From Bacteroidota bacterium (lineage in GTDB: Bacteria; Bacteroidota; Bacteroidia; B-17B0; Aurantibacillaceae), in assembly GCA_947450025.1 (NCBI GenBank), contig CANFTW010000017.1:1-64000 (forward strand): 64,000 bases of DNA, in the 5' to 3' direction. Of this stretch, positions 24,105 to 26,783 are shown in pieces. How positions within the stretch are numbered: position 1 is the first letter of the stretch; every line of letters begins with the position of its first letter. Position numbers and translations under genes: made by a program. The notes beneath the pieces are model-generated. The model saw nothing but the letters and a program-made list of their open reading frames with translations. It did no database searches and was not told where the DNA came from.

Positions 24105-24761
24105 CTATTTACTTACTTTTTTAGGCGCTAGCACCATCAACATTTTTTTACCTTCTAATACAGGTAATTGTTCTGCTTTACCCCACTCTTCTAATTCAGA
24201 AGCAAAACGAAGTAATAAAATAGTTCCTTGTTCTTTAAATACAATCTCACGACCTCTAAAAAATACAAAGGCTTTTACTTTACTACCTTCTTGTAAAAAC
24301 TTCATCGCGTGATTTTTCTTAAATTGATAATCATGCTCATCCGTATGTGGTCCAAAACGAATATCTTTTACAACTACTTTTGATGCTTTTGCTTTTACTT
24401 CTTTGGCTTTCTTTTTTAATTCGTATAAATACTTACCGTAGTCAATAATTTTACAAACAGGAGGATCAACATTTGGTGCAATTTCCACTAAATCTACACC
24501 TAGTTCTTCAGCCATTTCAATAGCCTTTGCAATAGGATATACACCTGCTTCAATATCATCACCAACAACACGAACCATAGGAGTATTTCTAATATTCCCA
24601 TTTATTCTATGTTGTTCTTCTCTCACACCAGGACGTTTAAATCCTTCTCTTAATCCACGAGGACGCTTTACTACTGGAGTTTGTCCAGGTGCAACAGTAC
24701 CAGGTTTTACAGGCCCAGTATTTTTGTTGTTGTTGTTTATTGGTTTTTTAAAAACGCTAAT
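24105..24761 (-). CDS. infC: Translation initiation factor IF-3, predicted AUU start
   Basis: The conserved IF-3 core begins at [12 protein letters not shown] and runs through [17 protein letters not shown] and [15 protein letters not shown] to the C-terminal domain. A GTG just before the core would give 173 residues, but the frame stays open upstream and encodes a basic, Asn/Pro-rich extension (KKPINNNN...[16 protein letters not shown]). No ATG, GTG or TTG occurs in that extension. The best start is ATT at 24759-24761, four bases after GGAGGT (24766-24771). This gives 218 residues. AUU is the known start of E. coli infC, where IF-3 discriminates against it to repress its own synthesis; the same logic is inferred here. 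It is 22 bases downstream of thrS. Confidence 0.85.
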
Positions 24762-24765
24762 AACT

Positions 24766-24771
24766 ACCTCC
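24766..24771 (-). promoter_or_regulatory. Strong Shine-Dalgarno before the infC AUU codon
   Basis: GGAGGT on the minus strand is four bases from the AUU. Almost no other gene in this window has a recognisable SD, so its presence supports initiation at this non-canonical codon. Confidence 0.7.
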
Positions 24772-24783
24772 GCTTTTTATTTA

Positions 24784-26733
24784 TTAATTAATTGTTTTTT
24801 GTTTAAAATCATTGTCAATTGTTGTTTGTACTAGTTTTGCAAAGTCTGCTATAGTCATTGTTCCTATATCTCCTTTACCATGTTCTCGCACAGCAACTGT
24901 TCCATCTTCCGCTTCTTTCTCACCAACGATAAGCATAAACGGTATTTTGTTTACTTCATTATCGCGAATTTTCTTCCCTATTTTTTCGTTTCTCTCATCA
25001 ACAAGGCCGCGAATATCGGAAATATTTAATAATTCTGAAACTTTTTTTGCATAATCGTTATATTTTTCACTAATCGGCAAAATCGCATACTGATCTGGAG
25101 TTAACCAAAGAGGGAAATTTCCACCGCAATGCTCAATTAACACTGCAATAAAACGTTCTAAAGAACCAAATGGTGCTCTGTGAATCATCACTGGGCGATG
25201 TTTTAAATTATCTGAACCCGTGTATTCTAATTCGAAACGCTCAGGTAAGTTATAATCTACCTGAATAGTTCCTAATTGCCATTTACGTCCCAAAGCATCT
25301 TTTACCATGAAATCTAATTTTGGGCCATAAAAAGCAGCTTCACCAGTTTCAACAACTGTTCTTAAGCCTTTTTCGGCTGCGGAATCAATAATTGCTTGCT
25401 CTGCCATTGCCCAATTTTCATCAGTTCCAATGTACTTCGCTTTGTTTTCTGGGTCACGTAAAGAAATTTGAGCTGTATAATCTTTAAAATCTAATGCATT
25501 AAATACATAAAGCACTAAATCAATCACTTTTAAAAACTCTTCTTTTACCTGATCAGGGCGAACAAATAAATGAGCATCATCTTGAGTAAATCCGCGTACA
25601 CGCGTTAAACCATGTAATTCTCCTTTTTGCTCATAGCGATAAACCGTTCCAAACTCTGCATAACGAACCGGTAAATCTTTATAGGATTTAGGTGATGATT
25701 TATAAATTTCGCAGTGATGCGGGCAATTCATTGGTTTTAAGTAAAACTCTTCGCCTTCGTGAGGTGTTTTAATTGGTTGAAATGAATCGGCGCCATATTT
25801 TTCGTAATGTCCAGAACAAACGTATAATTCCTTTTGGGCAATATGAGGCGTAACAACTGGTAAATAACCAGCTTTCATTTGCGCCTTTTGCATAAACTGA
25901 ATTAAACGTTCACGCAACATTGCACCTTTAGGTAACCATAAAGGTAAGCCTAAACCAACTTTTTCTGAAAATGTAAATAATTCTAATTCTTTACCTAATT
26001 TTCGATGATCACGTTTTTTAGCTTCTTCTAATAAAGTTAAATATTCTTTTAACTCCTTATCCTTTGGAAAAGCAATACCATAAATACGAGTTAACATTTT
26101 ATTTTTCTCGTCGCCTTTCCAATAAGCACCAGCAATATTTAAAACCTTAACAGCTTTAATAAATCCAGTATTTGGAATATGTGGGCCACGACATAAATCT
26201 GTGAAATTTCCTTGATTGTATAAAGAAATGTTTCCATCCTCTAAACGCTCTAATAAATCTAATTTATATTCATCACCTTTATCAGCAAAATATTTAATAG
26301 CATCTGCCTTAGTAATGTCAATGCGCTTATATTCGTTATTTTGACGAGCTAACTCTAACATTTTAGCTTCAATTTTCTCAAAATCAGCTGGTGTTAAAGT
26401 TTGTCCATTTAAATCAACATCATAATAAAACCCATTTTCCAATGGTGGCCCAACCCAAAATTTTACTCCTGGATATAATAATTCCAAAGCCTCTGCTAAT
26501 AAATGGGCTGATGAATGCCACAAGGTGTTTTTACCTTCTGCATCATTCCAGGTTAACAAACTTAAGCTTGAATCTTGATTAATTGGTTTGCTAGCATCTA
26601 CTACTTCGTTGCTAACTTTAGCGGCTAATACATTTCTTGCTAAGCCTTCGCTGATACTCTGTGCAACTTGCATAGAGGTGGTTCCTTTTGGGTATTCGCG
26701 AACAGAACCATCTGGTAAAGTTATTTTTATCAT
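24784..26733 (-). CDS. thrS: Threonyl-tRNA synthetase
   Basis: The 649-residue enzyme comprises a TGS domain (about 1-60) and an editing domain with HSSAH (about 74-78) and DLCRGPH. A class II catalytic core carries zinc ligands in [15 protein letters not shown] and [11 protein letters not shown], and a C-terminal anticodon-binding domain follows (about 540-649). It charges tRNA-Thr and clears Ser-tRNA-Thr. It is the first gene of the thrS-infC-rpmI-rplT operon. Its leader carries a tRNA-Thr anticodon-arm mimic overlapping the SD region, pointing to autoregulation of translation. Confidence 0.97.
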
Positions 26734-26742
26734 ATACTTGCT

Positions 26743-26759
26743 CCCACTTACAACGTGGG
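26743..26759 (-). promoter_or_regulatory. thrS leader hairpin mimicking the tRNA-Thr anticodon arm
   Basis: On the mRNA, CCCAC-GUUGUAA-GUGGG folds into a perfect 5-bp stem with a 7-nt loop. In tRNA numbering the loop is G32 U33 U34 G35 U36 A37 A38: the invariant U33, anticodon UGU (threonine) and purine 37 all fall in place. The 3' strand of the stem runs into GGGAG, the only SD-like sequence, about 8 bases before the ATG. Binding of ThrRS would therefore block ribosome access, as in the E. coli thrS operator. The mimicry is seen in sequence; the regulation is inferred. Confidence 0.6.
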
Positions 26760-26775
26760 TTTTAATTTAGGGGAA

Positions 26776-26783
26776 CAAAGATA
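26776..26783 (-). promoter_or_regulatory. -7 box of the thrS operon promoter
   Basis: TATCTTTG on the minus strand is a perfect TAnnTTTG box. A start site about 5-7 bases downstream would give a leader of roughly 35-40 bases that consists essentially of the anticodon-like hairpin. No well-spaced TTG -33 box is visible. Confidence 0.55.

Follow-up and report, generated by a model that had tools for sequence, protein, structure and literature searches.

The window, a stretch of 64,000 nucleotides, carries on its minus strand the thrS gene for threonyl-tRNA synthetase (ThrRS; 24,784–26,733), an open reading frame of 649 amino acids which is both the regulated gene and the proposed repressor. Solved ThrRS structures are matched over nearly the full length (1nyq, E 4.5e-197; 1qf6, E 1.9e-163), and 271 residues (42%) are identical to those of E. 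coli ThrRS. The E. coli residues N575, E600 and R609, which we take to be anticodon contacts, are all identical in the ThrRS of the window. Upstream of thrS is TATCTTTG (26,776–26,783, minus strand), a predicted −7 promoter box; the perfect TAnnTTTG that a preliminary description of this DNA had claimed at this point is indeed present.

Between the box and the thrS AUG (at 26,733) lies a hairpin (26,743–26,759, minus strand), recognised from the sequence, from scans and from folding, which mimics the anticodon arm of tRNA-Thr. It consists of a 5-bp stem, CCCAC/GUGGG, and a 7-nt loop, GUUGUAA (26,748–26,754), which in tRNA numbering reads G32 U33 U34 G35 U36 A37 A38. The register put forward earlier, with U33, UGU at 34–36 and A at 37–38, was therefore borne out. 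A 9-nt spacer (26,734–26,742, minus strand) separates the arm from the AUG and, together with the 3′ strand of the stem, presumably occupies the ribosome-binding region. The Shine-Dalgarno-like GGGAG noted in the preliminary description is also there, at 26,741–26,745; its distance to the AUG is 7 nt and not the 8–9 nt first given.

The anticodon loop of tRNA-Thr(UGU) in the same genome is UUUGUAA, equal to the leader loop at six of seven positions. The stems of both threonine tRNAs found (ACUGA/UCAGU and CCUCC/GGAGG) differ from the leader stem, so it is the loop which is shared and not the whole arm. The hairpin is predicted in the fold of the short leader (37 nt with 30 nt of coding sequence), with pair probabilities of 0.98–1.0. 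It is absent from the minimum-energy fold when 120 nt are added upstream, a stretch that is mostly promoter DNA and presumably untranscribed. A second arm was looked for in the window's leader and none was seen, and ARAGORN returned no tRNA within the window. The arm is not a terminator, since there is no run of U after it in the window.

The gene after thrS is called infC from its own sequence and from its place behind thrS. No ATG, GTG or TTG stands ahead of its conserved N-terminus. The start may be AUU (24,761–24,759), preceded by a strong Shine-Dalgarno sequence, GGAGGU (24,766–24,771), within the region 24,756–24,771 of the minus strand. The 17 same-genus loci inspected have GGAGGU followed by AUU or AUC, and the infC of E. 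coli likewise begins at AUU.

Conservation and base-pairing within the order

The window's order was sampled through one family, yielding 61 thrS leaders, 60 of them distinct. A strict scan accepted stems of at least 5 pairs with U33 and GU at positions 35–36 in the tRNA register. Such an arm is present in 58 of the 60 distinct leaders (59 of 61 before duplicate removal). In 20 dinucleotide-preserving shuffles of the 61 leaders, GU arms averaged 0.4 and never exceeded 2. Since the scan itself demands GU, the weight rests on the rarity of the other 15 dinucleotides in the same scan, each of which was found at 35–36 in no more than 2 of the 61 leaders.

On the preliminary description, close relatives should keep both the hairpin and a threonine triplet in its loop. 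The triplet of the strict-scan arms is always a threonine anticodon (UGU in 58, CGU in one), and the hairpin is missing from only two of the 60 distinct leaders, L170 and L171, from two genera whose genomes have the least similar ThrRS of the order (74% and 71%). Of the 59 order arms, 16 have U at position 37. One order genome holds a second thrS (G052:C87:57285-59180), 54% identical to that of the window; the leader of this copy, L172, was the only one of its kind and has no arm (0/1).

The arm ends 7–15 nt before the start codon across the 59 leaders, and it is this placement which is the conserved feature. The arm of the order thus lies within the expected 30S footprint, in or beside the ribosome-binding region. 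Bacteroidota make little use of Shine-Dalgarno signals. The emphasis which the preliminary description had laid on overlap with a Shine-Dalgarno sequence did not survive the comparison, as a core of this type occurs at −18 to −4 in just 11 of the 59 arm-bearing leaders and is missing from the other 48. The conserved logic would accordingly be the occlusion of the initiation region rather than of a Shine-Dalgarno sequence. An exact TAnnTTTG is found 9–20 nt upstream of the arm in 35 of the 59 leaders and 40–45 nt upstream in two, while the remaining 22 have none within 60 nt. In most leaders the arm follows the promoter box by about 16 nt, near the predicted 5′ end of the mRNA.

Covariation was assessed over 52 distinct order arms of five pairs each, giving 260 pair cells, against 500 shuffles. 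All 260 cells are paired, with no broken pair and six G-U pairs. Cells changed on both sides number 40 against a shuffled mean of 11.5; the covariation score of 0.485 compares with 0.242. Neither value was reached in any of the 500 shuffles. When the 3′ partners were slid by 1–3 columns, pairing fell to 26–42%. Two further counts do not stand out, namely pairs with a double change (four of five against 2.6, reached by 31 of 500 shuffles) and further pair types (7 against 6.7, reached by 296 of 500). As 59 of the 61 leaders satisfied the pairing rule, the selection of arms explains little of the covariation in the order. The stem is maintained through base-pairing rather than sequence, and the covariation check suggested in the preliminary description thus came out in favour of the hairpin, which is kept while its stem changes in pairs. 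Strong covariation was also recorded in an alignment of arms from outside the order (A2; 27 distinct arms in 43 rows, including L021 and L022, which duplicate order leaders). The arms of A2 were chosen by the pairing rule from 140 leaders, so its covariation is in part built in and is given no weight; outside the order the evidence is the comparison of dinucleotides among the 137 distinct leaders given below.

Specificity for thrS and for positions 35–36

The total set comprised 201 thrS leaders, 61 from the order and 140 from the rest, with four duplicates among them; L019 and L077 (truncated genes) and the four duplicate leaders were dropped. GU occupies positions 35–36 in 110 of the 201 and every other dinucleotide in at most 16. 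With U33 required, these counts become 102 and at most 5. Among the 137 distinct leaders outside the order, GU was found in 45 and any other dinucleotide in at most 6 (stem of at least 4, loop of 7–9, U33 and A37). Shuffled versions of the 140 leaders gave GU in a mean of 1.15.

A looser scan (stem of 4, loop of 7–9, A37 free) makes the register less distinct and returned GU in 59, TA in 33 and TT in 19 of the 61 order leaders. The TA and TT counts are probably the same hairpins, read with a stem shorter by one pair and a loop of 9 nt. Outside the order the looser scan returned GU in 54 of 140 leaders and others in at most 12. The control scan of the opposite strand is hardly informative, picking up for the most part the arms in mirror image (CA in 45 leaders, GU in 4).

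Within the sample the arm is specific to thrS. No hairpin with both U33 and GU was found in 42 control leaders of the same family, 14 each for serS, valS and ileS (L272 and L299 were excluded as the start pattern was not matched), nor did these leaders have a hairpin with the dinucleotide of their own anticodon. Two of the 14 serS leaders have a hairpin with GU and without U33. Common upstream blocks, which may be promoter or leader elements, are shared by the valS leaders L288, L289, L294, L296, L297 and L300 of the family; examples are GTGCCATAAAGATA (L294, L296, L297 and L300) and TTTTTGCGAAATTTAACA.

A covariance model of the arm, R1, was searched against 61 whole genomes under stricter filters, with only 119 first-pass candidates scored per genome. 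The top match was at the thrS leader in 56 of them. Of the other five genomes, G012 and G035 have no thrS match, G021 and G022 have no arm, and in G040 the arm was missed by the model and seen by the scan. Most of the thrS matches are training sequences of R1; the held-out check covers the four leaders kept out of the model (L235, L236, L252 and L253), all of which have the arm. Of the weaker matches away from thrS, seven with some of the best E-values were inspected. No leader is among them, six being in reading frames and one intergenic; the strongest of the seven (G026, 35.1 bits) lies within a reading frame. The intergenic one is a terminator-like hairpin at L249 638–668 which has the loop UUUGUAA, by apparent chance. 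The thrS search in the window's genus left two of 20 genomes without a match, G006 and G012. In G012, which is listed as 99% complete, no R1 match is better than E 0.079, and the absence of thrS is probably an assembly gap.

Arms in other Bacteroidota

Taxon groups outside the order were assigned partly by genus names. The group f9 is Cyclobacteriaceae-like by resemblance only, and f2 was counted as Sphingobacteriaceae because its leader L118 is identical to L058 from Mucilaginibacter. All 27 distinct leaders of Sphingobacteriaceae contain an arm enclosing the start codon, mostly AAUCAU-loop-AUGAUU, in which the start codon is inside the 3′ strand. A second, upstream arm is present in 24 of the 27, in 23 of these by the strict scan. 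Among hairpins of the 201 leaders that pair over the start codon, GU is found in 28 cases and no other dinucleotide in more than 3; none of the 60 distinct order leaders has a start-codon arm. Codon 2 is AUU in 26 of the 27 Sphingobacteriaceae leaders and AUC in one, and in the other groups outside the order it is AUA in 23, AUU in 22 and AUC in 11. This bias is as pairing would favour, and kinship contributes to it too. The start-codon arm appeared in none of three Sphingobacteriaceae leaders that were folded, where the upstream arm had an open loop in L034, had its loop closed by extra pairs in L038 and was absent in L062.

An arm with GUUUGUAN is present in 11 of 17 Cyclobacteriaceae-like leaders, three of the 11 having only 4 pairs. 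The arm was further found in three of 17 other Cytophagales, one of six Chitinophagales, three of 12 unnamed or Bacteroidales MAGs and three of 29 leaders from other families of the same class, and in none of eight named Flavobacteriales or 20 leaders from other classes. GU hairpins without U33 were not counted as arms; they include L199, the upstream hairpin of L033 with the loop ACACGUAA, and L088, from a MAG of the Flavobacteriales, with 9 pairs and the loop GUAAGUAU. Loops of both 7 and 8 nt occur in Bacteroidota.

Position 34 is free, while G35 and U36 are constant. The 43 strict-scan rows outside the order have U34 in 34, A in six, C in two and G in one, the rows including two order members (L021 and L022) and a duplicate of L058 (L118), all with U. 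ARAGORN, run on 24 of the 30 tRNA loci (40 matches in all) of G279, whose arm carries AGU, found only threonine tRNAs with GGU and UGU. The ‘minimal one-arm version’ of the E. coli strategy proposed in the preliminary description fits the window's order, and does not extend to the Sphingobacteriaceae, which carry two arms and are nearer to E. coli.

A broader reading of this distribution, to which we give slightly less than an even chance, is that autorepression by ThrRS through an anticodon mimic is common across the class Bacteroidia and has an origin separate from that of E. coli, as a case of convergence in a phylum that makes little use of Shine-Dalgarno signals. There would be at least three layouts, with the arm at the ribosome-binding region, with the arm farther upstream and with a pair of arms, one of them enclosing the start codon. 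ThrRS would read only G35 and U36, and anticodons such as AGU, unseen among the threonine tRNAs found, would be tolerated.

Proposed mechanism and comparison with known systems

From the pattern in the leaders, the hairpin is very probably a translational operator through which ThrRS, bound to the arm, prevents initiation on the mRNA that encodes it, with tRNA-Thr as the competitor. Free ThrRS would bind through its anticodon-binding domain, as the arm imitates the anticodon arm of tRNA-Thr. The bound enzyme would cover the region 7–15 nt upstream of the AUG and so stop 30S loading. Plentiful uncharged tRNA-Thr would compete for ThrRS and free the mRNA, closing a negative feedback loop. Binding by ThrRS, repression and relief by tRNA are what we infer; the constancy of G35 and U36, which are common to all threonine anticodons, is what recognition by ThrRS would lead one to expect. 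Several points count against this mechanism. A single arm is unusual for a dimeric enzyme, the element is patchy across the phylum, the arm is missing from the fold of the longer stretch and the start-codon arm from the three folded Sphingobacteriaceae leaders, two of the five shuffle measures do not stand out, and some order arms have U at position 37.

There is a small chance that the arm does bind ThrRS and governs mRNA decay or transcription instead of translation initiation. It is close to the predicted 5′ end of the mRNA, where binding could affect decay. However, the tight spacing to the AUG in the order and the enclosure of the AUG by the Sphingobacteriaceae arm point to initiation.

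It is improbable that the arm is a general 5′ stability or translation-tuning hairpin with an NGU loop by chance, even though the arm is near the promoter box and an mRNA could be protected by a hairpin not far from its predicted 5′ end. Such a hairpin would not be expected to hold G35 and U36 constant with N34 free. It should also precede other genes, yet the 42 control leaders lack U33 with GU (the two serS hairpins having GU alone), and no leader is found among the seven non-thrS model matches read. Slightly less probable again is a DNA operator for a transcription factor, in favour of which the arm forms an inverted repeat that generally follows the promoter box by some 16 nt. A repressor should conserve its half-sites, whereas here the half-sites turn unrelated and the spacer is constant. 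In addition, a DNA palindrome would be interrupted by the G-U pairs found in six of the 260 cells, and one arm of the Sphingobacteriaceae takes in the start codon.

T-boxes sense uncharged tRNA through codon–anticodon pairing. Sensing of this type is very nearly excluded for the window: in the excerpted text of PMC2494555 a T-box controls thrS in nearly all Firmicutes examined and is found in none of seven Bacteroidetes/Chlorobi genomes, the Rfam search of the window gave no family at or above its gathering score, and the loop GUUGUAA carries an anticodon (NGU) and no threonine codon (ACN) as specifier, so the usual pairing with the tRNA-Thr anticodon is impossible.

Literature searches among open-licence papers listed none on autoregulation by ThrRS, or on mimicry of an anticodon, in Bacteroidota. 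In its main text PMC8040213 does not contain ‘thrS’, ‘threonyl’ or ‘tRNA synthetase’, and that of PMC2864571 does not contain ‘thrS’, ‘threonine’, ‘tRNA synthetase’ or ‘anticodon’. The putative operator with ThrRS as its reader would matter in several respects. The stems of the Bacteroidota arms are free and G35-U36 is fixed, which provides dozens of natural variants that would reveal what ThrRS recognises. The layouts with one arm and with a start-codon arm raise the question of how a dimeric enzyme represses through a single arm, and of how repression operates where Shine-Dalgarno pairing is little used. The arm would also be a part for feedback control in Bacteroidota and a means of annotating thrS leaders.

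For tRNA mimicry in the control of bacterial genes, the thrS operator of E. coli is the textbook example. According to excerpts of PMC11088916 and PMC9976931, two anticodon-like hairpins are bound by E. coli ThrRS, which thereby represses the mRNA that encodes it, and a change of the leader loop to the methionine anticodon moves control to MetRS; the operator is also described in an excerpt of PMC3858243. A looser scan of the E. coli thrS leader listed 20 hairpins, two of them with 7 pairs and GU in register, UUCGUGU (7 nt, loop beginning at −35) and AUUUGUUG (8 nt, at −99), which fit the anticodon-like hairpins described in the excerpt of PMC11088916. The Bacteroidota leaders likewise have anticodon-like hairpins with GU at 35–36, and the window's element would work like the E. 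coli operator. They differ in layout. Unlike E. coli, with its two arms, the window's order has one arm placed 7–15 nt before the AUG and in 48 of 59 leaders no Shine-Dalgarno-like core, and the Sphingobacteriaceae have the AUG inside one arm. The element of the window, having no second arm, is thus a variant and not a member of the two-arm E. coli type.

AspRS and HisRS of Saccharomyces cerevisiae also bind their own mRNA, through an anticodon-like element proposed or shown in the excerpted parts of PMC6542539 and PMC9976931; these systems are eukaryotic and concern other amino acids. The T-box of Firmicutes thrS, in the portion of PMC2494555 that covers it, resembles the proposed operator in exerting feedback control via the thrS leader. 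The T-box relies on codon–anticodon pairing, whereas the leader of the window carries the anticodon sequence itself.
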